Assembly (NCBI RefSeq): GCF_028617075.1
Contig: NZ_JAQKGV010000021.1
Span: 1-40,928, forward strand
Reading direction: 5' to 3'
DNA: 40,928 nucleotides
From: Rubrobacter calidifluminis
GTDB lineage: Bacteria; Actinomycetota; Rubrobacteria; Rubrobacterales; Rubrobacteraceae
Below, one piece after another: positions 1,277-11,799 of this stretch. Made by a program: the position numbers and the translations under genes. How positions within the stretch are numbered: the stretch's first letter is position 1; the number at the start of each line of letters is the position of its first letter. The notes below the pieces were generated by a model. That model saw only the letters and a list, made by a program, of their open reading frames with translations. It was not told the DNA's origin and did no database searches.

Positions 1277-1668
1277 AACTGCTCCTCCAAGTTCCGGATA
1301 ACTCTCTTCGGGGCGCACAGCGACCGGAAGGCTAGATGGATGGTGGTAAACCCCGGACACAACACGCCCTTTCGGATCAATGGTCGCACTAAACCCGCCC
1401 CCCGGCGTCGCCTGGAGGATGCAGGCATCCTGCACACTTGGGACCATCAGGGCTTCAGAACGACCTCTGTCGCACTCCCCGCTCGAGCACGATGTGACGG
1501 CGCGTCCGCCAGATGGCCCCATCGCTGCACCGAAGTGTGCAGCCAGGTTGCATCCCACGGCTCATTGCCAGCCTGCGGCAGCGTGAGATTATCCGGGCAT
1601 GCGCAGGATACTTCCGGGATCATACGGGACCGGGGCTTCACCCCGCACGAGGAGGGTGTAGCGCCGCC
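1277..1668. promoter_or_regulatory. Divergent intergenic region with dyad elements
   Basis: This 392-bp gap separates the minus-strand SDR from the plus-strand heptose-glycan operon, so promoters for both must lie here. I see no convincing gene in it. The clearest structure is the inverted repeat listed separately. A weak plus-strand promoter candidate is TTGCCA at 1565-1570, 17 nt before ATTATC at 1588-1593, but the -10 box is poor. Confidence 0.45.
1417..1555. repeat. Pair of 23-bp inverted repeats flanking a 93-bp spacer
   Basis: The right arm (1533-1555) reads AAGTGTGCAG-N6-TGCATCC. The left arm (1417-1439) carries the same pattern on the opposite strand; 17 of 23 positions match, and the N6 core differs. 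The left arm also contains two overlapping small palindromes, GGATGC-AG-GCATCC and TGCAGG-CAT-CCTGCA. Placement between divergent operons suggests paired operator sites for a looping regulator. It could also be a degraded repeat element. Confidence 0.5.
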
Positions 1669-3324
1669 TTGCGCGTCCTGGGGATCAACGCCGTCTTCCA
1701 CGACCCCGCCGCCGCGCTCGTGATAGACGGCGAGATCGTGGCCGCCTCGGAGGAGGAACGCTTCAGTAGGCGCAAGCACGGCAAGCGGCCCGTGCCTTTC
1801 TCCACCTGGGAGCTCCCGGAGCAGTCCGCGCGCTGGTGCCTGGAGCACGCCGGGCTCTCTCCCGCCGACCTCGACGCGGTGGCCTACTCCTACGACCCGG
1901 CGCTCGCCCCCCGTACGGAGGGCGAGATCACCGCCTACGGGTGGGAGGGTCTGCGCACACTCTACGCCCGCCGCGCCCCGCTCTTTCTGCGCTCCGCGTT
2001 CCCGGGCCTCGATCCGGGCAGAGTCCGCTTCGTCCCCCACCACGTCGCCCACGCCGCCTCGGCCTATCTGGCCGGTCCCTGTGACTCGTGCGCCGTGATG
2101 GTCGTCGACGGCCGGGGGGAGAGGACCTCCTACCTCGCGGGGCGCGCGGCGCGGGGCGGGCTGAAGGTGCTCGCCCGACAGGAACTGCCGCACTCGCTCG
2201 GGCTCCTCTACGAGGATCTGACCGAACACCTGGGCTTCAGGCGCTCCTCCGACGAGTACAAGCTCATGGCGCTGGCCTCCTACGGCGAGCCGGCCTTCCT
2301 GCCGGTGCTGCGGCAGACCATCCGGACCACCGGGGATGGCGGCTTCCGGACCGATCCCGTCGACTGGTGCGCCCTCGCCCCACCGGTTCCGCCAGGGTAT
2401 GAGGCGTGGGAGCGGGAGCATGCGGATCTGGCCGCGAGCCTGCAGGCCCGCCTCGAGGAGGTGCTGCTCGAGCTCGCCCGCTGGCTGTACAGAGAGACCG
2501 GTGAGCCCACCCTCTGCATGGCCGGGGGTGTGGCTCTCAACTGCGTCGCCAACTCCCGCCTGTGGAGGGAGGGCCCCTTCGAAGAGGTCTGGGTACAGCC
2601 CGCAGCCGGAGACGCGGGCACAGCCCTCGGGGCAGCGCTCTACCTCGCCCGTGAACTCGGGGACGAGGTTTCCCCCATGCGCGGCGCGGATCTGGGACGC
2701 TCCTGGACGGAGACGCAGATAGCGAAAGAGCTCTCGCGCGCCGCCCTGCCCTTCGAGCGCCCGGCGGACATCGCGTACGAGGCGGCGCGCATCCTGGCCT
2801 CCGACGGCGTGGTCGCCTGGTTTCAGGGTCGGAGCGAGTACGGCCCACGGGCACTCGGACACCGCAGCCTCCTCGCCCATCCGGGCAGGGAGGAGAACCT
2901 CGACCGCCTCAACGCCATAAAGGGTCGCGAGAGCTTCCGGCCCGTCGCCCCGATGGTCCTCGCCGGGCGCGCACCGGACATCTTCGAAGACGGCCCCCTC
3001 CCGAGCCCTTACATGCTCTTCACCCACCAGGTTAAGGGGTGCTGGAGAAGGAGGATCCCCGCCGTCGTCCACGTGGACGGCACCGCCCGCATACAGACCG
3101 TAAGCCCGGAAGCGGAACCTCTCACCCACCGCCTGCTCGCCTCCTTCGAGAAGCTCACCGGTCTGCCGGTTCTCGTCAACACCAGCCTCAACACCGGCGG
3201 GCGCCCGATGGTGGACTCCCCGCGCGACGCCCTGGAGTGCTTCGGCTCCTCACCGATCGACGCCCTCGCCATCGGCCCGTTCCTGGTACGCAGGAGGAGC
3301 GCTTTCGGAGGCAAGAAGGTTTGA
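1669..3324 (+). CDS. Carbamoyltransferase, NodU/CmcH family
   Basis: A 551-residue enzyme that should move a carbamoyl group from carbamoyl phosphate, through carbamoyl-adenylate, onto a sugar hydroxyl. The N-terminal domain begins with the ASKHA-like strand VLGINAVFHDPAAALV and EEERFSRRKH. HHVAHAAS at residues 124-131 supplies the metal-binding histidines, and VVDGRGE around residue 147 a conserved Asp. The C-terminal YrdC-like half has EYGPRALGHRS and, near the end, NTSLNTGGRPMVDSP. I chose the TTG at 1669, 12 nt after GGAGGG, because homology begins exactly there. It is the first gene of the overlapping operon and its stop overlaps the next start as TTGA. Bleomycin-type sugars also combine a carbamoyltransferase with heptose or mannose pathways, so the likely acceptor is a heptose or mannose unit of this cluster's glycan. 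Confidence 0.9.
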   Translation: MRVLGINAVFHDPAAALVIDGEIVAASEEERFSRRKHGKRPVPFSTWELPEQSARWCLEHAGLSPADLDAVAYSYDPALAPRTEGEITAYGWEGLRTLYARRAPLFLRSAFPGLDPGRVRFVPHHVAHAASAYLAGPCDSCAVMVVDGRGERTSYLAGRAARGGLKVLARQELPHSLGLLYEDLTEHLGFRRSSDEYKLMALASYGEPAFLPVLRQTIRTTGDGGFRTDPVDWCALAPPVPPGYEAWEREHADLAASLQARLEEVLLELARWLYRETGEPTLCMAGGVALNCVANSRLWREGPFEEVWVQPAAGDAGTALGAALYLARELGDEVSPMRGADLGRSWTETQIAKELSRAALPFERPADIAYEAARILASDGVVAWFQGRSEYGPRALGHRSLLAHPGREENLDRLNAIKGRESFRPVAPMVLAGRAPDIFEDGPLPSPYMLFTHQVKGCWRRRIPAVVHVDGTARIQTVSPEAEPLTHRLLASFEKLTGLPVLVNTSLNTGGRPMVDSPRDALECFGSSPIDALAIGPFLVRRRSAFGGKKV

Positions 3325-4871
3325 CGGCGAAAGATCGACCCCCGGTCTCGGTGGACGTGGTGATCCCGACCTCGGGACGCTCCTCGCTCGCGGAGCTCCT
3401 CTCGGCGCTCGCCTCCGGGAGCGTTTCGCCGCCGGGATGGGTGGTCCTGGTCGACGACCGCAGAAGCCCCGATGGACCGCTACTGTCCCGCGGGGCGCCC
3501 GGGCCTCTCAGAAAGAGGCTGCTCGTCGTGCGGGGCCGGGCTGCGGGCCCGGCGGCGGCGCGCAACACGGGCTGGCGCGCATCGGGTGCCCGCTGGGTCG
3601 CCTTCCTCGACGACGACGTCATCCCCGCCCCCGACTGGATGGAACGCCTGCTCGACGACCTCTCAGGCCTCAAAGAGGGGGTCGCCGCGAGCCAGGGCAA
3701 CCTCAGGGTCCCGCTCCCGAAAGGCCGCCGTCCGACCGACTGGGAGCGCAACGTCAGGGGACTGGAGGGTGCGCCCTGGATCACGGCGGACATAGCCTAC
3801 CGCCGGCGGGCGCTCGCACGTCTGGGCGGGTTCGACGAGCGCTTCCCCCGCGCCTACCGGGAGGACGCAGACCTCGCCCTGCGTGCCACGCGCGCGGGCT
3901 ACACCCTGGTACGCGGAGAGCGCACCTCCTTCCACCCCGTCCGTCCCGCACCGCCGTTCGTGAGCCTGCGCCTGCAGTCTGGGAACGCCGACGACGCGCT
4001 GATGCTCGCGCTGCACGGCCGCGGGTGGTGGCGGGCGGCGAAGGTGCCCGCAGGGCGCAGACCCGGCCACCTCGCGACCACCGCCGCCGGGACAACCGCG
4101 CTCCTCGCCCTCCTCGCCAGGAGACGACGCCCGGCCGTCCTCGCGCTCTCGCTCTGGATGGCTTTGACGGCGGAGTTTGCCGCCTCGCGCCTCGCCCCGG
4201 GACCCGGCACACCGCGGGAGGTCGCGGCGATGCTCGCGACGAGCGCCCTCATCCCTCCCGCGGCGAGCGCACACTGGCTGCGCGGGCTCCTGCGCGCCCG
4301 CAGCCTGCTCCGGGACGACTCCCGCGCCCCGCACCCGCTACCCGTCGAGCGGCTCCCCGAAGCCGTCATCTTCGACCGGGATGGCACGCTCGTGCGCGAC
4401 GTCCCCTACAACCGCGACCCCGGGCGGGTCGAGCCCGTGCCGGGCGCGAGGGAGGCCCTGCAGCGGCTGCGGGCCTCGGGCATCGCTCTCGGCATCGCCA
4501 CGAACCAGAGCGGCGTGGCCCGGGGCCTCATAGACCGCAGGGAGCTCCTCGCGGTGAACCAACGGGTCGAGGAGCTCGTCGGTCCCCTCGGCTTCTGGGC
4601 CGTCTGCCCGCATGCCCCGGAGGAGGGCTGCCAGTGCCGCAAGCCCGCCCCCGGGCTCGTACTGCGCGCCGCACGGGCCCTCAGCTCGGATCCCAGCCGC
4701 TGCGTGGTGGTCGGCGACACGGGTGCCGACGTGGAGGCCGCCCGGACCGCCGGGGCACGTGCCATCCTCGTCCCCACCCCGGCTACCCGCCCGGAGGAGA
4801 TCCGGAGCGCCCCCGAGGTCGCACCCGACCTGCCCTCGGCCGTCGACCTCATCCTGGGAGAAACCCTTTGA
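3321..4871 (+). CDS. Fusion: family-2 glycosyltransferase + GmhB-type heptose-bisphosphate phosphatase
   Basis: A 516-residue two-enzyme protein. Residues 10-240 form a GT-A glycosyltransferase: VVIPTSGR at 13-20, metal-binding DDD at 97-99, and the likely base region YREDAD at 179-184. Residues 250-320 are hydrophobic, with about two possible membrane segments. Residues 347-516 are a HAD-IIIA phosphatase with DRDGT at 352-356 (D352 nucleophile), TNQSG from 394, and the zinc loop CPH-X5-CQC at 429-439, which is diagnostic of GmhB. GmhB removes the 7-phosphate of D-glycero-D-manno-heptose 1,7-bisphosphate. GmhA and HldE are encoded in the same operon, completing the pathway. The TTG start overlaps the previous stop, with GGAGG 9 nt before it. 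The anomer used (ADP or GDP route) cannot be read from the sequence. Confidence 0.88.
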   Translation: MTAKDRPPVSVDVVIPTSGRSSLAELLSALASGSVSPPGWVVLVDDRRSPDGPLLSRGAPGPLRKRLLVVRGRAAGPAAARNTGWRASGARWVAFLDDDVIPAPDWMERLLDDLSGLKEGVAASQGNLRVPLPKGRRPTDWERNVRGLEGAPWITADIAYRRRALARLGGFDERFPRAYREDADLALRATRAGYTLVRGERTSFHPVRPAPPFVSLRLQSGNADDALMLALHGRGWWRAAKVPAGRRPGHLATTAAGTTALLALLARRRRPAVLALSLWMALTAEFAASRLAPGPGTPREVAAMLATSALIPPAASAHWLRGLLRARSLLRDDSRAPHPLPVERLPEAVIFDRDGTLVRDVPYNRDPGRVEPVPGAREALQRLRASGIALGIATNQSGVARGLIDRRELLAVNQRVEELVGPLGFWAVCPHAPEEGCQCRKPAPGLVLRAARALSSDPSRCVVVGDTGADVEAARTAGARAILVPTPATRPEEIRSAPEVAPDLPSAVDLILGETL

Positions 4872-5887
4872 GGCCGCATGTCCTCGCCTGCCGGCTGGAC
4901 AACGCGGGGGACGTCCTCCTCGCAGGGCCCGCCCTCCGCGCCCTCGCCGCCGGGGCGGCGAAGGTGACGATGCTCTGCGGACCTCGGGGGGCAGAGGCGG
5001 CGCGGATGCTCCCCGGCGTGCGGGAGGTGATCGTCTATGACGCTCCCTGGGTGGCCTTCGATCCCACCCCGCTCGACCGCGAACGAACGCTCGGGCTCGT
5101 CGAACTCATCTCACGCATGGGAATAGACCAGGCGTTCATCTTCACCTCCTTCCACCAGAGCCCGCTCCCGCTCGCGCTCCTGCTGCGCCTGGCCGGGGTG
5201 CCCTTCGTCGCCGCGAGCAGCGTGGACTACCCGGGCTCGCTGCTGGACATCCGACACCTCCCGGAAGAATGCCTGCACGAGGTCGAGCGCTCGCTCTCCC
5301 TGGTCGAGAGGGCAGGATATACCCTGCCCCCGGACGACGACGGGCGCCTCGCCGTCCGCCTGCCCCAGGGAGAGCATCCCCTCCTTCTTGAGGGTCCCTA
5401 CATCGCCGTCCATCCCGGAGCATCGGTCCCGGCCCGCACCTGGAACCCGGAGCGCCACGCAACCCTCGTCGGACGCCTGCTCGAGGAGGGCTGGCGGGTG
5501 GTCGTGACCGGCGGACCGGAGGAGCGAAAGCTGACGGCCCGGGTGACCAGAGGACGTCCGGGAACACTCGACCTCGGCGGCAGGACCACCCTGTCCGAAC
5601 TCGCCCGCATCCTCGCCGGCGCACGGCTGCTGGTGACCGGCAACACGGGCCCGGCGCACCTCGCCGCGGCGGTGGGAACCCCCGTGATCTCGCTCTTCGC
5701 CCCCACCGTCCCCCTCGAGCGCTGGCATCCCTGGAAGGTTCCCCACCGCCTGCTCTACACGCCTGTCCCCTGTGCGGGGTGCCGCGCCCGCGTCTGTCCC
5801 TTCGAGGAGCACCCCTGCCTCGGCGGCGTCGGCGTGGAGGAGGTGCTCGAGGCCGTGTCCGCGCTGATGGAGGAACGTGCGAGGTGA
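4868..5887 (+). CDS. Glycosyltransferase family 9 (heptosyltransferase-type)
   Basis: A 339-residue GT-B enzyme of the ADP-heptose transferase family. The N-terminus has CRLDNAGDVLLAGPALRAL, the family's LGDxL acceptor-side motif. The C-terminal nucleotide-sugar domain has HPGAS near residue 182, VTGGPEE, and GNTGPAHLAAAVGTPV near 258-273, the classic GT9 donor loop. The tail CAGCRARVCPFEEHPCL is the Cys-rich ending common in this family. In Gram-negatives these enzymes build the LPS inner core. With no LPS genes here and NDP-heptose enzymes in the same operon, it probably adds heptose to a lipid- or wall-linked glycan. It starts at a TTG overlapping the previous stop (TTGA), with GGGAGA upstream. 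Confidence 0.88.
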   Translation: MRPHVLACRLDNAGDVLLAGPALRALAAGAAKVTMLCGPRGAEAARMLPGVREVIVYDAPWVAFDPTPLDRERTLGLVELISRMGIDQAFIFTSFHQSPLPLALLLRLAGVPFVAASSVDYPGSLLDIRHLPEECLHEVERSLSLVERAGYTLPPDDDGRLAVRLPQGEHPLLLEGPYIAVHPGASVPARTWNPERHATLVGRLLEEGWRVVVTGGPEERKLTARVTRGRPGTLDLGGRTTLSELARILAGARLLVTGNTGPAHLAAAVGTPVISLFAPTVPLERWHPWKVPHRLLYTPVPCAGCRARVCPFEEHPCLGGVGVEEVLEAVSALMEERAR

Positions 5888-6819
5888 AGGTCTTTCTCTG
5901 GCACGTCCATGGCTCCTGGACCACCGCCTTCGTGCATGGACCCCACGAGTACCTGATCCCGACCCTCCCCGACCGCTCCCCCGACGGCCTCGGCCGCGCC
6001 CGGACCTATACCTGGCCCGAGAGCGCGATCGAAGTCTCCCCGCAGGAGGCCGCCGCAGCCGATGTGGACGTCGTCATCCTCCAGCGACCGCAGGAGCTCC
6101 ACCACCTAGCCGAAGAGTGGCTCGGGGGACGCAGGCCCGGCCGGGACCTGCCCGCCGTCTACGTCGAGCACAACGCACCGCAGGGTAGTATCAACGACAT
6201 GCGACATTGCGTCGCGGACAGGAGGAACATCCTGCTCGTGCACGTGACGCACTTCAACGCCCTCTTCTGGGATGCGGGCTCCACCCCGGTGCGGGTGATA
6301 GAGCACGGGATCGTGGACCCCGGTTACCTATACGTGGGAGAGCTTGGGCGGGTGGCCGTCGTGATCAACGAGGCCAGGAGGAGGTGGCGGGTGACCGGCA
6401 CGGACCTCCTCGGCTTCTTCCGGAAGGTCGCGCCGCTCGACCTGTTCGGGATAGACGCCGAGAGCCTCGGGGGGCGTGATCTGCCACAGGAAAAGCTGCA
6501 CCGGGAGATGGCCCGCCGCCGGGTCTACCTGCACCCCTTCCGGTGGACCTCGCTCGGGCTCTCGCTCATCGAGGCGATGCATCTCGGGATGCCCGTGGTC
6601 GCGCTCGCCACCACGGAGGTTCCAGAGGCGGTCCCCCGCGGGGCCGGGGTCGTCTCAAACGACCCCGTGGTGCTCGAGGAGGGTCTGCGGCGCCTTCTCG
6701 CCGAGCCGGAGGAGGCCCGGGCGGCGGGGCTCGTGGCCCGCAGGGCGGCGAGGGAGCGTTACGGACTCGAGAGGTTCCTCGCCGATTGGGAGGAGGTGCT
6801 GGTGGAGGTGGCAGGATGA
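5884..6819 (+). CDS. GT-B glycosyltransferase, GT4-like
   Basis: A 311-residue protein that begins VKVFLWHVHGSW at a GTG overlapping the previous stop (GTGA). The C-terminal half has the GT4 donor-site region TSLGLSLIEAMHLGMPVVAL around residues 220-240. The second Glu of the usual EX7E pair is present, but the first position is Thr, so catalysis or donor binding may differ from standard GT4 enzymes. It is shorter than typical GT4 proteins (360-400 residues). An EHNAP segment around residue 98 and EHGIVDPG around 142 resemble GT4 inter-domain motifs. The role is inferred to be one step in assembly of the operon's heptose-containing glycan. Donor and acceptor are unknown. Confidence 0.8.
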   Translation: MKVFLWHVHGSWTTAFVHGPHEYLIPTLPDRSPDGLGRARTYTWPESAIEVSPQEAAAADVDVVILQRPQELHHLAEEWLGGRRPGRDLPAVYVEHNAPQGSINDMRHCVADRRNILLVHVTHFNALFWDAGSTPVRVIEHGIVDPGYLYVGELGRVAVVINEARRRWRVTGTDLLGFFRKVAPLDLFGIDAESLGGRDLPQEKLHREMARRRVYLHPFRWTSLGLSLIEAMHLGMPVVALATTEVPEAVPRGAGVVSNDPVVLEEGLRRLLAEPEEARAAGLVARRAARERYGLERFLADWEEVLVEVAG

Positions 6820-8030
6820 GGGTCGCGATGGTCTCCGAGCACGCGAGCCCCCTGGCGACGCTCGGCGGGGTGGATGCCGGGGGACAGAACGTGCACGTGG
6901 CTGCGCTGAGCACGGCGCTGGGACGCCTGGGGGTCGAGGTGGTGGTCTACACCCGCAGGGACGGGTCGCTCCTGCCACGCCGGGTGTCCCTCGGCCCGCG
7001 CGTCGCCGTCGAGCACGTCGAGGCCGGCCCCCCGGAGCCGGTCCCAAAGGACGAGCTGCCGCCCCACATGGGCCAGTTCGCCGCCGGGCTGCGCAGGGCC
7101 TGGCGGAGCTGGCGCCCAGACGTCGTACACGCGCACTTCTGGATGTCCGGCAAGGCCTCACTGGAGGCCCGGCCACCCGGTGTCCCGGTCGTCCAGACCT
7201 TCCACGCCCTCGGGATCGTCAAGCGCCGGCATCAGGGCGAGAAGGATACCAGCCCCCCGGAGCGCATCGACGAGGAGAGGAAGATCCTGCGCAGCGCGGA
7301 TCGGATCGTGGCGACCTGCAGCGATGAGGTCTTCGAGCTGGTGCGCCTCGGGGCGGACCCCAGGAGGATCTCGGTCGTCCCCTGCGGCGTCGACCTCGGC
7401 ATCTTCCGACCCGACGGGCCCGCGGAGAGGCGCCCGCCGGGGATACATCGGATCGTCGTCGTGAGCCGCCTGGTGGAGAGGAAGGGGATCGGAGACCTCA
7501 TCGGTGCACTTCACCCCCTACCACAAACCGAGCTCGTCGTCGCCGGAGGCCCCGACGCCGCGCGGCTCGATGCGGACCCCGCGGCCCGGCGCTTCCGGTC
7601 GCTCGCCCGCGGGCTCGGCGTGGAGAGCAGGGTACACCTGCGCGGCAGGATCTCCCACGAGGAGGTGCCCGCCCTCCTGCGCTCGGCGGACGTGGTCGCG
7701 TGCGTCCCCTGGTACGAGCCCTTCGGGATAGTGGCGCTCGAGGCGATGGCCTGCGGGGTGCCGGTGGTGGCCTCGGCGGTGGGCGGGCTGGTCGATTCGG
7801 TCGTCCACGGCGTAACCGGGCTGCACGTGCCGCCGGGAGACCCCGGGGCCCTGACCTCGGCGCTCCGGATGCTGCTGGGTGACCCGGAGCGCCGCCGCAG
7901 GCTCGGGGAGGCGGGATCGCGCCGCGCCGCCGCACGCTACGGGTGGGAGAAGGTCGCGCGCTCGACGCTAGAGGTCTACGGCAACCTGCTGGAGTCCGGT
8001 CGCGTCCCGGGCGAGGAGGTCTCGCGGTGA
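6816..8030 (+). CDS. Glycosyltransferase family 4 (sucrose-phosphate-synthase/MshA-like)
   Basis: A 404-residue retaining GT-B enzyme. The N-terminus has the glycine-rich GGVDAGGQNVHVAAL motif at about residues 15-29, found in sucrose-phosphate synthases, MshA and related GT4 proteins. VVHAHFWMSG follows near 104, then VVSRLVERKGIGDLI near 215. EPFGIVALE near 302-310 is the EX7E signature, followed by MACGVPVVASAVGG. The ATG start overlaps the preceding stop as ATGA. The similarity is to a broad family, so it does not by itself imply sucrose or mycothiol synthesis. Within this operon a sugar-transfer step on the heptose glycan is the likeliest role. Confidence 0.88.
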   Translation: MRVAMVSEHASPLATLGGVDAGGQNVHVAALSTALGRLGVEVVVYTRRDGSLLPRRVSLGPRVAVEHVEAGPPEPVPKDELPPHMGQFAAGLRRAWRSWRPDVVHAHFWMSGKASLEARPPGVPVVQTFHALGIVKRRHQGEKDTSPPERIDEERKILRSADRIVATCSDEVFELVRLGADPRRISVVPCGVDLGIFRPDGPAERRPPGIHRIVVVSRLVERKGIGDLIGALHPLPQTELVVAGGPDAARLDADPAARRFRSLARGLGVESRVHLRGRISHEEVPALLRSADVVACVPWYEPFGIVALEAMACGVPVVASAVGGLVDSVVHGVTGLHVPPGDPGALTSALRMLLGDPERRRRLGEAGSRRAAARYGWEKVARSTLEVYGNLLESGRVPGEEVSR

Positions 8031-8635
8031 GAGACGGGGAGCTCCCGACCGGACGCGCGCACCTCGCAGCGCTCTTCGAGGCTCTCGGCTCCCTGGAGGA
8101 CGACCTGGAGAAGATCGAAGGGTGGGGCGTACACCTCGCCCGGGTTCTCACAGGAGGGGGACGCCTGCTCGCAGCCGGCAACGGCGGGAGCGCCGCGCTC
8201 GCCGAGCACCTCTGCGGTGAACTCTCCGGGCGCTACCGCGACGACCGCAGACCACTCTCCGCGCTCGCCCTGCACTCCGACGGGGCCTCCCTCACAGCCA
8301 TCGCGAACGATTATGGGCCGCGGGCGGTCTTCTCCCGGCTCGTCGCCGCCCACGGCAGGCCGGGGGACGTCTTCCTCGCCATCTCCACCTCCGGCGAGAG
8401 CCCGAACGTCCTCTCCGCCGCGCAGGAGGCCCTGCGGCAGGGTCTCACGGTCTGGGCGATGACCGGCCGCCGGCCGAACCCGCTCGCCGGCCAGGCACAC
8501 GACGCGCTCTGCGCCGACGCGGGGGAGACGGCCACCATCCAGGAGGTGCACCAGGTCGCCGTCCACATGCTGTGCGCGGCCCTCGACTGCCGGCTCGGGG
8601 TCTCGGTCCCGCAGCGAGGGGAGGTAGCGCGTTGA
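8027..8635 (+). CDS. gmhA: Phosphoheptose isomerase (sedoheptulose 7-phosphate isomerase)
   Basis: A 202-residue SIS-domain protein of normal GmhA length. It should convert sedoheptulose 7-phosphate to D-glycero-D-manno-heptose 7-phosphate, the first committed heptose step. Phosphate-binding AAGNGGSAALAEHL lies near residues 45-58, SDGASLTAIANDYG near 85-98, STSGESPNV near 123-131, and the C-terminal EVHQVAVHMLCAALD carries the catalytic His region. Glu in AEHLCGEL matches the catalytic Glu of the family. The GTG start overlaps the preceding stop as GTGA. The next gene encodes the kinase and nucleotidyltransferase acting on its product. DiaA, a paralogous SIS protein, is less likely given this context. 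Confidence 0.92.
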   Translation: MRDGELPTGRAHLAALFEALGSLEDDLEKIEGWGVHLARVLTGGGRLLAAGNGGSAALAEHLCGELSGRYRDDRRPLSALALHSDGASLTAIANDYGPRAVFSRLVAAHGRPGDVFLAISTSGESPNVLSAAQEALRQGLTVWAMTGRRPNPLAGQAHDALCADAGETATIQEVHQVAVHMLCAALDCRLGVSVPQRGEVAR

Positions 8636-9978
8636 AGGCCGGGAGGGTCGTCGTGGTGGGCGACGTCCTTCTCGACCGCGACATCGAGGGCAGGGTGGAG
8701 AGGCTGTGCCCCGACGCCCCGGCCCCCGTCGTGGACGAACTCGGGCGGAGCTCACGACCCGGCGGTGCCGGTCTCGCCGCGACCCTCGCCGCCGCTGATG
8801 GAGCCCGGGTCACGCTCGTGTGCGCCCTCGCCCGGGATGCCGCGGGGGAAGAGCTTGGGGCCATGCTCTCCGAAGCCGGCGTGGAGGTCATCGACCTCGG
8901 CTGTGACGGTACGACGCCGGAGAAGGTGCGCATCCTGAGCGGCGGCAGGACGCTCCTGCGCCTGGACCGCGGCTCCCCGGCCCGGCCAGGCCCTCTGCCG
9001 GAGTCCGGCCGCAGGGCGCTGGCCGAGGCAGATGCGGTCCTGGTCTCGGACTACGGCAGGGGCGTCGCCGCCCATCCGGGGCTGCGGGAGGCGCTCGCTG
9101 CGCTCCCTTTCGGCAGGCCCCTGGTGTGGGATCCACACCCCCGCGGACCGTCTCCCCTCCCCCGGTCCACGCTCCTCACCCCGAACCTCTCCGAGGCCCG
9201 GGGTGCCACAGGAGGCAGAGAAGACCCACCGAGACTGGCCCGCGCGTTGCTGCGTCTCTGGCGCGCGGAGGCCGTCGCCATCACCCTCGGGGCGGGCGGA
9301 GCCCTGCTCGCGGACGGGATGGGGCTCTTCGCCGCACCCGCTCCTCGGGTCTCGGGGGGTGATGCGTGCGGGGCCGGCGACCGCTTCGCCTCGCGGGCCG
9401 CGGTACTCCTCGCCTCCGGCTCCGGAGTACGGGAGGCCGTGGAGGAGGGCGTACTCGCCGCCTCCAGCTTCGTCGCCGCCGGGGGTGCCGCCTCGTTCGC
9501 CGCGGAATCCCCGCCGGGGGTTGCTCCCGAGGTGGAGGAGATCGTCGCCCGGGTCCGGGCGGCCGGGGGGAAGGTCGTGGCCACCGGGGGGTGCTTCGAC
9601 CTGCTGCACGCCGGACACGTCGGGCTCCTCGAGGGCGCCCGGGCGCTCGGGGACTGCCTCGTCGTCTGCCTCAACTCCGACGGGTCGGTGCGGAGGCTGA
9701 AGGGAGAGGACCGTCCGCTGGTGCCTCAGGCAGAGAGGGCGAAGGTGCTCGGTGCCCTGGGGTGCGTGGACGCCGTTGTCGTCTTCGACGAGGATACCCC
9801 CGAGGCCGTCCTGGAGCGGCTGCGCCCGGACATCTTCGTAAAGGGCGGCGACTACGAGGCGCGGGAACTCTCCGAAGCCCGCACGCTCGCCCGCTGGGGC
9901 GGGGAGGTCGTCATCCTCCCCTACCACGAGGGACGCTCCACCACCCGGCTGATAGAGGAGGCCGCCCGCCGTGGCTGA
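8632..9978 (+). CDS. hldE: Bifunctional heptose 7-phosphate kinase / heptose 1-phosphate adenylyltransferase
   Basis: A 448-residue fusion. The N-terminal PfkB kinase domain (1-300) has VVGDVLLDRDIEG, SDYGRGV, LLTPNLSEA and the catalytic GDACGAGD loop with D250 as base. The C-terminal cytidylyltransferase-like domain (313-448) has GGCFDLLHAGH (HxGH at 326-329) and VKGGDYE near the end. HldE makes heptose 1,7-bisphosphate, and after GmhB action forms NDP-heptose. One oddity is the sugar-contact motif: RPGGAGLAAT replaces the usual GGAxN, so the conserved Asn is absent. The TTG start overlaps the gmhA stop (TTGA), with GGGGAGG upstream. ADP is the usual nucleotide for this domain order, but specificity is not proven here. 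The 6-epimerase HldD is not in the window. Confidence 0.92.
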   Translation: MKAGRVVVVGDVLLDRDIEGRVERLCPDAPAPVVDELGRSSRPGGAGLAATLAAADGARVTLVCALARDAAGEELGAMLSEAGVEVIDLGCDGTTPEKVRILSGGRTLLRLDRGSPARPGPLPESGRRALAEADAVLVSDYGRGVAAHPGLREALAALPFGRPLVWDPHPRGPSPLPRSTLLTPNLSEARGATGGREDPPRLARALLRLWRAEAVAITLGAGGALLADGMGLFAAPAPRVSGGDACGAGDRFASRAAVLLASGSGVREAVEEGVLAASSFVAAGGAASFAAESPPGVAPEVEEIVARVRAAGGKVVATGGCFDLLHAGHVGLLEGARALGDCLVVCLNSDGSVRRLKGEDRPLVPQAERAKVLGALGCVDAVVVFDEDTPEAVLERLRPDIFVKGGDYEARELSEARTLARWGGEVVILPYHEGRSTTRLIEEAARRG

Positions 9979-10915
9979 GAGAGGTCCGGTCCTGCTCGTC
10001 CTGCGGGCGCTCGGGCTCGGGGATCTGCTCGCGGGCGTGCCCGCGCTGAGGGCACTGCGTCGCTCGCACCCCGGCCACCGCATCGTCCTGGCGGCCCCGG
10101 CCTGCCTGGAACCGCTCGCCCGCCTCTCCGGGGCCGTGGACGCGGTCGCGGACGCCCGGCTCGGCCGTGCCCTCCCGCCGGGGCTGCACGGGGCGGACCT
10201 CGCGGTGAACCTGCACGGCAGGGGCCCCGAGAGCCACCGCACGCTCCTGGCCACGGGGCCACGGCGCATGGTCTCCTTCCACAACCCGGAGGTGCCGGAG
10301 AGCGCCGGGGGTCCTCGCTGGAGGGCGGAGGAGCACGAGGTCGTCCGGTGGTGCCGGCTGCTCGATGAGAGCGGCATCCCGGCCGACCCTTCCGAGCTGG
10401 ACCTGAGACCACCGGAGATCCCCGTGGAGAGGCGGGCGCGGGGGGCGACGCTCATACACCCCGGTGCAGCGAGCCCTGCCCGCCGCTGGCCCGCGGAGCG
10501 GTGGGCCGCCGTAGCCCGGGCCGAGAGGGAGTCCGGGAGGGAGGTCCTGCTCACCGGCGGCCCCGGAGAGGTGGAGCTGGCACGGCGGGTGGCCCGGACG
10601 GCCGGGCTCCCGGAGGGGTGCGTGTACGCCGGACGCACCGGGCTTCTGGAGCTCGCCGCGCTCGTCGCGGCGGCCGGGCGCGTCCTCTGCGGAGACACGG
10701 GGGTCGCACACCTGGCGACCGCGCTCGGCACCCCCTCGGTGGTGCTCTTCGGCCCCGTCTCCCCCCGGCTGTGGGGCCCACCGCCGGAGAGGGAGCGTCA
10801 CCGGGCGCTGTGGGCCGGCAAGAGCGGCGACCCGCACGCCGCGACCCCGGATGCCGGGCTGCTCGAGATCGGGGTCGGTGACGTGCTGGAGGCGATCGGG
10901 GAGCTCCCGCGATGA
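9971..10915 (+). CDS. Glycosyltransferase family 9 (second heptosyltransferase-type enzyme)
   Basis: A 314-residue GT9 protein. It starts LLVLRALGLGDLLAGVPALRAL, the family's acceptor-side LGDLL motif. The donor-side half has IHPGAASPARRWP near 160, LLTGGPGE near 192, and GDTGVAHLATALGTPSVVLFGP near 238-259. The GTG start overlaps the hldE reading frame by 8 nt and has GAGGAGG about 10 nt upstream inside hldE. It differs from the GT9 at 4868-5887 in lacking the Cys-rich tail, so the two probably add different residues. Co-location with gmhA and hldE suggests heptose as donor. Confidence 0.88.
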   Translation: MAERGPVLLVLRALGLGDLLAGVPALRALRRSHPGHRIVLAAPACLEPLARLSGAVDAVADARLGRALPPGLHGADLAVNLHGRGPESHRTLLATGPRRMVSFHNPEVPESAGGPRWRAEEHEVVRWCRLLDESGIPADPSELDLRPPEIPVERRARGATLIHPGAASPARRWPAERWAAVARAERESGREVLLTGGPGEVELARRVARTAGLPEGCVYAGRTGLLELAALVAAAGRVLCGDTGVAHLATALGTPSVVLFGPVSPRLWGPPPERERHRALWAGKSGDPHAATPDAGLLEIGVGDVLEAIGELPR

Positions 10916-11799
10916 GAGCCCTAGTCGCCGGGTGGTTCAGCTTCGTGCGCGGGGAGGCCACGGCGGGTGACCTGCTCGCGAAGGACACCGTCTGCCGGTG
11001 GCTCGAAGAGGCCGGGTGGGAATTCGACGTGGCCCTCTCTCCCGCATTCGGCGGGGAGGGCGTGGACTGGCGCACGGTGGACCCGACGCGCTACGAGGCG
11101 GTGGTCTTCGTCTGTGGACCGGCGAGGGGTGAGCAGATCTCCTCGCTCGCCCGGCGTTTCTCCGGCCGCCGGCTCGTCGGGCTCGGGGTCTCGGTGATCG
11201 AAGGCTCGAAAGAGACGGAGCTCTTCGACGTCCTCGTCCCCCGGGACGGCCCCTCGGGAGCGCTCCCGGACCTCAGCTTCCTCGCCACCCCGCGTAAACC
11301 CCCGGTCGTCGGGCTCATCCTCTCTCACCCCCAGCCGGAGTACGGGGAGCGTGCCACGCACGAGGAGGTACACGAAAGGCTGCTCCGCATCCTCCACGCG
11401 GAGGATCTCTGCATCCTCCCCCTCGACACCCGGGTGGATCCCCGCTCGCAAGGATTCCGCACCTCCGGGGAGGTGGAGGCCGCGATCTCGCGGATGGACG
11501 CCGTGGTCACCACCCGGCTGCACGGGATGGTGCTCGCGCTCAAAAGCGGCGTGCCCGCGCTCGCGATCGACCCCGTACGAGGCGGAGCGAAGGTCGGCAG
11601 CCAGGCGGCGGCGCTGGGCTGGTCCGCCCTGCTCCTCCCGGAAGAACTCGACCGGAAGTCTCTCCTGGAGAACCTGAAGTTCTGCCTCTCACCGGAGGGG
11701 CGTGACGCCGCCAGCCGGGTGAGGGAGCGGGCGGCGCTGCTCCTGGAGACGGCCCGCTGTCGCTTTCTGGAGGCGCTCGGAAGGGCGGACGCAGGCTAA
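10912..11799 (+). CDS. Polysaccharide pyruvyl transferase family protein
   Basis: A 295-residue protein that I place in the polysaccharide pyruvyl transferase/CsaB-like group. The main evidence is TTRLHGMVLALKSGVPALAI near residues 199-218, followed by DPVRGGAK. This is the conserved RxHG region and downstream loop of that family. Members add a ketal-linked pyruvate from phosphoenolpyruvate to a sugar; in wall polymers this can anchor S-layer (SLH) proteins. Some members have other activities, so the substrate is open. The ATG overlaps the GT9 stop (ATGA). It is the last gene of the operon, and its TAA overlaps the stop of the convergent DUF2267 gene. Confidence 0.75.
   Translation: MRALVAGWFSFVRGEATAGDLLAKDTVCRWLEEAGWEFDVALSPAFGGEGVDWRTVDPTRYEAVVFVCGPARGEQISSLARRFSGRRLVGLGVSVIEGSKETELFDVLVPRDGPSGALPDLSFLATPRKPPVVGLILSHPQPEYGERATHEEVHERLLRILHAEDLCILPLDTRVDPRSQGFRTSGEVEAAISRMDAVVTTRLHGMVLALKSGVPALAIDPVRGGAKVGSQAAALGWSALLLPEELDRKSLLENLKFCLSPEGRDAASRVRERAALLLETARCRFLEALGRADAG

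Follow-up and report, generated by a model that had tools for sequence, protein, structure and literature searches.

The forward strand of the 40,928-nucleotide stretch of Rubrobacter calidifluminis contig NZ_JAQKGV010000021.1 that we analysed (hereafter the window, meaning the whole stretch) contains an open reading frame at positions 3321-4871 that encodes a genuine two-enzyme protein, with a family 2 glycosyltransferase (GT2) and a GmhB-type phosphatase of the HAD-IIIA class (hereafter HAD) in one chain. The gene lies in a conserved operon that also encodes the GmhB pathway partners GmhA (8027-8635) and HldE (8629-9978). The best overall explanation, to which we give a probability of about 0.8, is that a single two-domain protein is made and that its HAD and GT2 domains would act at non-consecutive steps of heptose-glycan assembly.

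The frame runs without a stop from a TTG at 3321 to the TGA at 4869-4871 and encodes 516 amino acids. Its TTG overlaps the TGA (3322-3324) of the preceding gene, and the following gene may begin at a TTG at 4868, overlapping the stop of the fused gene. The fused gene may itself begin later in frame, for example at the GTG at 3351. The encoded chain consists of a GT2 catalytic domain with a GT-A fold (3348-4028, residues 10-236), three predicted helices (4059-4313, residues 247-331), a short, variable linker modelled with lower confidence (4314-4355) and the HAD domain (4356-4868, residues 346-515 plus the last codon). Residues 13-121 match the Pfam GT2 model PF00535 with 43.4 bits (cut-off 23.3), and the predicted fold of this domain resembles that of chondroitin polymerase 2z86 (Z 20.1). 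D46, the DxD-type motif D97-D98-D99 and the pair E181-D182 are near-invariant; we take the motif to bind the metal ion and E181-D182 to provide the acidic base.

The evidence for the second domain is of the same kind. Residues 348-484 match NCBIfam model TIGR01656 (histidinol-phosphatase-type HAD-IIIA) with 118.5 bits (cut-off 84.15), and Pfam models PF00702 and PF13242 match residues 370-478 and 439-503, respectively. The GmhB-type set DxD, TNQSG, Lys and GDxxxD is present (D352, D354, N395, Q396, S397, K441, D466 and D470), and these residues are presumably catalytic. The CxH...CxC pattern of the zinc loop is present as well (C429, H431, C437 and C439), and we assume that these four residues hold a zinc ion. 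Across 76 aligned proteins, the active-site residues of both domains, including those of the zinc loop, show at least 97% identity. The solved structures nearest to the HAD by sequence are those of GmhB (3l8h, 5.6e-22; 4pnh, 2.1e-21; 2gmw, 2.1e-15). In the predicted structure of the 516-residue protein, which has a mean predicted local distance difference test (pLDDT) score of 93.8, the HAD superimposes on B. bronchiseptica GmhB 3l8h with Z 24.0 (1.8 Å over 169 residues, 34% identity) and on E. coli GmhB 2gmw with Z 23.8. The proposal of the initial annotation that a GT2 protein ends in a GmhB-type phosphatase domain is thus borne out by the domain matches, the fold and the single conserved frame.

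The same frame is found in relatives. These were collected with six short peptide patterns from the fused protein over a genome collection, and the best 80 of 402 were retained; with the fused protein as bait and this selection, the scan favours fused forms. One locus (L047) was left out because its contig is identical to that of L036, leaving 79 loci (L048-L126). In 72 of these, a single frame encodes one protein of more than 450 amino acids, and in L114 the single frame is ended by the contig end, so that the frame is open in 73 of the 79. Split, adjacent GT2 and HAD genes occur in four loci (L121, L122, L125 and L126), and a GT2 without a HAD in two (L123 and L124). The loci span many Actinomycetota as well as records labelled Eremiobacterota, Dormibacteraeota and Chloroflexi.

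We also screened 396 sampled genomes from the phylum at a match threshold of 1e-30. Among the 48 matching genomes, 30 contain the fused form, six contain split and adjacent genes, and one has the two parts 40 kb apart; the rest contain the HAD only (four), the GT2 only (two), partial matches (two, G213 and G222) or a weak HAD only (three). For four of the 30 (G085, G164, G337 and G405), the match was fragmentary or incomplete, and we counted them as fused since both parts share one open frame. The fusion is not a sequencing error that joins two genes, a possibility raised in the initial annotation, since the frame is intact at 73 of the 79 loci and in 30 of the 48 genomes that matched; with the frame conserved across genera and many genomes, assembly error and chance are likewise ruled out. 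A search of 60 relatives identified full-length, single-frame homologues (64-69% identity) in G009, G020 and G011, three further genomes from the family. Neither the fusion nor HldE was found in the two sampled genomes of the same genus, G001 and G002, and the heptose cluster is patchy within the genus. Among plasmid records there were four matches, the best of which (Streptomyces) is annotated as two parts, "glycosyltransferase" and "HAD family hydrolase". A divergent GT2-HAD fusion (L141 in genome G164, 39% identity), with no adjoining operon genes and no HldE detected in its genome, is possibly an independent event.

An internal start or proteolysis might still free the GmhB part. Relatives with adjacent, overlapping split genes give this idea some footing: in nine of ten split relatives, the stop codon of the GT2 gene runs into a start codon for the HAD within the sequence ATGA or GTGA, and in the tenth within TGATG. 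We scanned the 25 codons upstream of the HAD for an in-frame ATG, GTG or TTG with a ribosome-binding-like site. Some in-frame start codon is present in 48 of 81 fused sequences, 69 such codons in all, and none of the 69 carries a ribosome-binding-like site, so that 0 of the 81 fused sequences score positive, compared with six of ten split genes, which served as a partial positive control. The window gene has no candidate start codon within these 25 codons. The test does overlook real starts, as it was positive in only those six of ten split genes and in four of 13 sequences with a HAD but no GT2, and the linkers can exceed the stretch scanned: 29 residues separate G322 from D352 in the window protein, and over 76 sequences this stretch has a median length of 19 and a range of 15-63. 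An internal start yielding a separate GmhB, which the initial annotation had named as an alternative, is thus not supported, and we regard the production of two proteins as improbable.

A different question is which pathway the HAD serves. Trehalose-6-phosphate synthase/phosphatase (TPSP) and sucrose-phosphate synthase resemble the protein studied here in having a HAD phosphatase behind a glycosyltransferase on the same chain; in those enzymes, the HAD removes the phosphate from the product of its own glycosyltransferase. The HAD of the window protein might likewise act on the product of its GT2, unrelated to heptose, and synthase/phosphatase fusions of this kind do exist, TPSP being an example (excerpt of PMC3634074). 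The two domains described here differ from those of such enzymes in following different partners. The conserved operon has the order carbamoyltransferase, GT2-HAD, GT9 (GT9a), GT4-like (GT4x), GT4, GmhA, HldE and a second GT9 (GT9b), and the HAD tracks the heptose genes, not the GT2. In the 396-genome sample, HldE is present in 28 of the 30 genomes with the fused form, in all six with split genes, in the one with relocated parts and in all four with the HAD only, but in neither of the two with the GT2 only. Counted over the whole sample, 39 genomes have both HAD and HldE, two the HAD alone, 14 HldE alone and 341 neither; HldE therefore accompanies the HAD in 39 of 41 genomes and occurs in 14 of the 355 others, with related genomes counted singly and kinship ignored. 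The three genomes with a weak HAD only and the two with partial matches were kept out of the 41; HldE is present in just one of the five, G213. Moreover, the HAD heads a GT9a-GT4-GmhA-HldE block without a GT2 in eight loci (L037, L127/L150, L128, L137, L142, L143, L144 and L149), and, as mentioned above, its nearest solved structures are those of GmhB. The separate occurrence of the two parts led us to reject a HAD serving its own GT2, which we consider highly improbable. In the window genome, the only strong match to the GmhB family is the fused HAD domain (119.7 bits; the next is about 24), and the gene of the operon is alone in matching the HldE nucleotidyltransferase. The HAD therefore most likely supplies the GmhB step of the heptose-precursor pathway, as judged from its sequence and its genomic company.

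Several observations weigh against the explanation that we prefer, in which a single protein couples a heptose-pathway phosphatase to a GT2. The HAD scores below the curated GmhB cut-offs (NF006506, 116.5 versus 178 bits; TIGR00213, 67 versus 149.6 bits), and the NF006506 cut-off was passed in none of the 17 genomes searched; because of these scores, we name the domain GmhB-type and do not file it under either model. Two genomes with the fused form have no detected HldE: G337, whose fused gene is located at the end of a contig, and G164, the one with the divergent fusion. In G047, the gene is in pieces on two contigs and there is no HldE nucleotidyltransferase match, the HldE kinase part being located at a contig end. 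The three weak HADs outside the 41 (44-48% identity) are in genomes without HldE, and the 14 genomes with HldE alone lack the HAD at the threshold used. Finally, the predicted template modelling (pTM) score of 0.72 leaves the relative placement of the two domains loose. A dedicated HldD epimerase above cut-off was not found in the 17 genomes, although an unrecognised one might be among the numerous weaker hits to the general epimerase family.

HldE provides the steps on either side of GmhB, one as kinase and the other as nucleotidyltransferase (PMC10948575, in part). Because the GmhB product needs activation by HldE first, and because the likely heptosyltransferases are separate GT9 proteins, the HAD is unlikely to pass its product directly to the GT2; if being fused brings a benefit, it would therefore come from ratio or location. 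In our proposal, the GT2 at the N-terminus, together with the three helices that belong to it, would transfer a different sugar or a further heptose onto the same glycan, which would also make use of the carbamoyltransferase. The fusion would fix the ratio of the two domains, which would act at steps that do not follow each other, and would keep the phosphatase beside the glycan-assembly machinery. It may have arisen when two coupled genes with an overlapping stop and start became one frame, or the reverse may have happened.

Location could also mean the membrane, and the initial annotation had described a hydrophobic region at about residues 250-320 as a membrane-like linker that could tether heptose-precursor synthesis to the membrane site of transfer. 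Three helices are indeed predicted there, following the GT2 catalytic domain (246-264, 268-290 and 297-330 in model numbering, which is protein numbering minus one), but they are only weakly hydrophobic, below the level of a usual transmembrane helix. The second helix is the most hydrophobic of the three, with a mean of 1.40 over 19 residues, compared with 1.45 for residues 26-44 in the GT2 core, the highest value in the window protein. Over the 76 sequences, the best 19-residue mean averages 1.34 for residues 245-285 (at least 1.6 in 15) and 1.12 for residues 296-325 (at least 1.6 in four). In favour of an anchor, the estimated membrane-insertion energy is far better for the helical segment than for the GT2 core (averages of 1.7 and 6.0 kcal/mol, respectively). 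Its best value in the window protein is nevertheless +1.6 kcal/mol, and it falls below zero in only one of the 76 family members. The loop between helices 1 and 2 contains on average 2.84 Lys/Arg and 0.1 Asp/Glu residues, and this Arg/Lys-rich loop argues against a simple two-pass hairpin with the loop outside. The part of the claim that is not supported is the linker. GT2 proteins without a HAD align through residue 328 or 329 (L123, L124, L136 and L145), and others align up to residue 290 (L146) or 295 (L148, ended by the contig end), while the segment ends about 14 residues ahead of the HAD. Because HAD-less GT2 proteins carry the same segment, it belongs to the GT2 and is not a linker built for the fusion. 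Near-invariant positions within it include H250, R290, G294, P295, E300, S308, P312 and G322. A true transmembrane hairpin anchoring the phosphatase at the site of transfer is thus rather unlikely; peripheral or half-buried membrane contact of the helical segment is possible, and the data do not point to a standard two-pass anchor. PAP2 was also matched weakly in this region (18.3 bits against a cut-off of 27.2), which we judged to be due to chance.

The fusion might, on the other hand, be neutral: an inherited accident of overlapping genes without functional effect. Both split and fused forms exist, HADs without a GT2 persist, and changes between the fused and non-fused states are needed at least four times on a concatenated tree and at least eight times on the HAD tree. 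Many branches are weak, and the well-supported ones force one change of the fused label on either tree and two of the split label on the HAD tree; the seven split forms from Streptomyces and family f19 form one group there with 96% support in the SH-like approximate likelihood ratio test (SH-aLRT). Against neutrality stands the distribution of open frames over the gene junctions, counted over the same loci with L040-L045 and L141 left out. One open frame spans the GT2-HAD junction in 80 of 90 adjacent pairs, whereas none was found at the carbamoyltransferase-GT2 (0/83), GT9a-GT4x (0/71) and GT4x-GT4 (0/62) junctions. The figure of 80 of 90 is inflated by the fused bait, a bias that bears mainly on this junction, and shared ancestry by itself might account for a large part of it. 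Single frames also occur at the GT4-GmhA (19/68), GmhA-HldE (4/69) and HAD-GT9a (3/90) junctions. It is mainly because precursor enzymes recur in one frame with glycosyltransferases that we do not dismiss the fusion as an accident, although we hold neutrality to be quite conceivable, at somewhat under even odds.

The 19 GT4-GmhA single frames are those of L052, L056, L057, L068, L070, L073, L075, L089, L095, L097, L100, L102, L103, L106, L110, L115, L118, L139 and L147. An internal start with a ribosome-binding-like site is present in five of them, versus 25 of 49 separate pairs, and these five may be two proteins. Such starts were found in none of the four GmhA-HldE single frames (36 of 65 separate pairs) and in none of the three HAD-GT9a single frames (35 of 87 separate pairs). 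In the latter three loci (L131, L143 and L149), the HAD shares a frame with the downstream GT9 instead of a GT2. The GT4 and GmhA genes of the window are separate and overlap. Because heptose-precursor enzymes repeatedly share frames with glycosyltransferases, and the two glycosyltransferase-glycosyltransferase junctions tested never do, one might speculate that precursor synthesis and glycan assembly are physically linked in one complex at the inner face of the membrane, a tentative idea that we think is probably wrong.

The fused protein shares with known GmhB proteins the fold, the catalytic aspartates, the TNQSG motif, the lysine, the zinc-loop pattern and the GmhA and HldE partners in the operon; it differs in that the phosphatase forms the C-terminal part of a chain that begins with a GT2, falls under the curated cut-offs and occurs mainly in Actinomycetota. 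Six of the GT2-less HADs that head GT9-GT4-GmhA-HldE blocks (L037, L128, L137, L142, L144 and L150) belong to the same HAD family (54-66% identity) and have the same neighbours, but are unfused, with the GT2 elsewhere or not detected. The split genes of Streptomyces (L121 and L122) and Eremiobacterota (L125 and L126) have the same order and a GT2 with the helical segment, the difference being the overlapping stop and start between the two domains. Actinobacterial tridomain NDP-heptose synthetases, which combine isomerase, kinase and nucleotidyltransferase (PMC11573728, in part), are also fusions of heptose-pathway enzymes, whereas here the phosphatase is joined to a glycosyltransferase. At the level of titles and the first lines of abstracts, no report of a GT2-GmhB fusion was found among the search hits listed; Tang et al. 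2018 or 2022 could mention it. The fusion is of a known kind, in a combination for which no report was found. Its presence is the mark of a heptose-glycan operon that is widespread and conserved in Actinomycetota and occurs in some other bacteria, and it points to a phosphatase that most likely serves this operon. An excerpt of PMC11573728 describes what manno-heptose does biologically as little studied, and activated heptoses trigger the immune sensor ALPK1 (PMC11461863, in part). Given ALPK1, it is useful to know which bacteria without lipopolysaccharide may make activated heptoses.

The other genes of the operon, all on the forward strand, were counted in 82 related loci wherever a window gene was matched with 60 bits or more. 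These counts are rough: some matches are distant or on the other strand, the GT9s and the GT4s cross-match, and many loci end at contig ends. The first conserved gene encodes a NodU-like carbamoyltransferase (1513-3324, start uncertain; 79 of 82 loci, five of them weak and on the other strand). Downstream of the fused gene lie GT9a of the heptosyltransferase family (4868-5887; 78 loci, GT9 cross-matches included), a GT4-like glycosyltransferase (5884-6819; 66), an MshA-like GT4 glycosyltransferase (6816-8030; 65), the GmhA-type sedoheptulose-7-phosphate isomerase of the SIS family (57), the HldE-type kinase/nucleotidyltransferase (58) and GT9b (9971-10,915; 61). A polysaccharide pyruvyltransferase-like gene (10,912-11,799) is loosely associated (15 loci).

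The cluster is not always intact. In three genomes it is broken at the GT2/HAD junction, with the carbamoyltransferase-GT2 pair apart from HAD-GT9a-GT4-GmhA-HldE (L123 with L127/L150, L124 with L128, and L136 with L137). In six Amycolatopsis loci (L066, L067, L079, L086, L090 and L091), GT9a alone is close by, and HldE is present in all six genomes; in that of L066, GmhA and HldE are on the same contig, next to a gene for a carbamoyltransferase (L129). Four loci of the same family (L041, L042, L043 and L044) contain a different heptose cluster, GmhA-HAD-HldE plus GT9 genes, with a separate HAD that is about 40% identical, and both GT4-type genes are present in three of these four. The HldE of the window carries the motif YHEGRSTT, the first residue being Tyr and not Phe or Leu, while Arg is present in 42 of the 45 other loci showing the motif. 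Arg at that position has been linked to the additional synthesis of CDP- and UDP-heptose (PMC11461863, in part).

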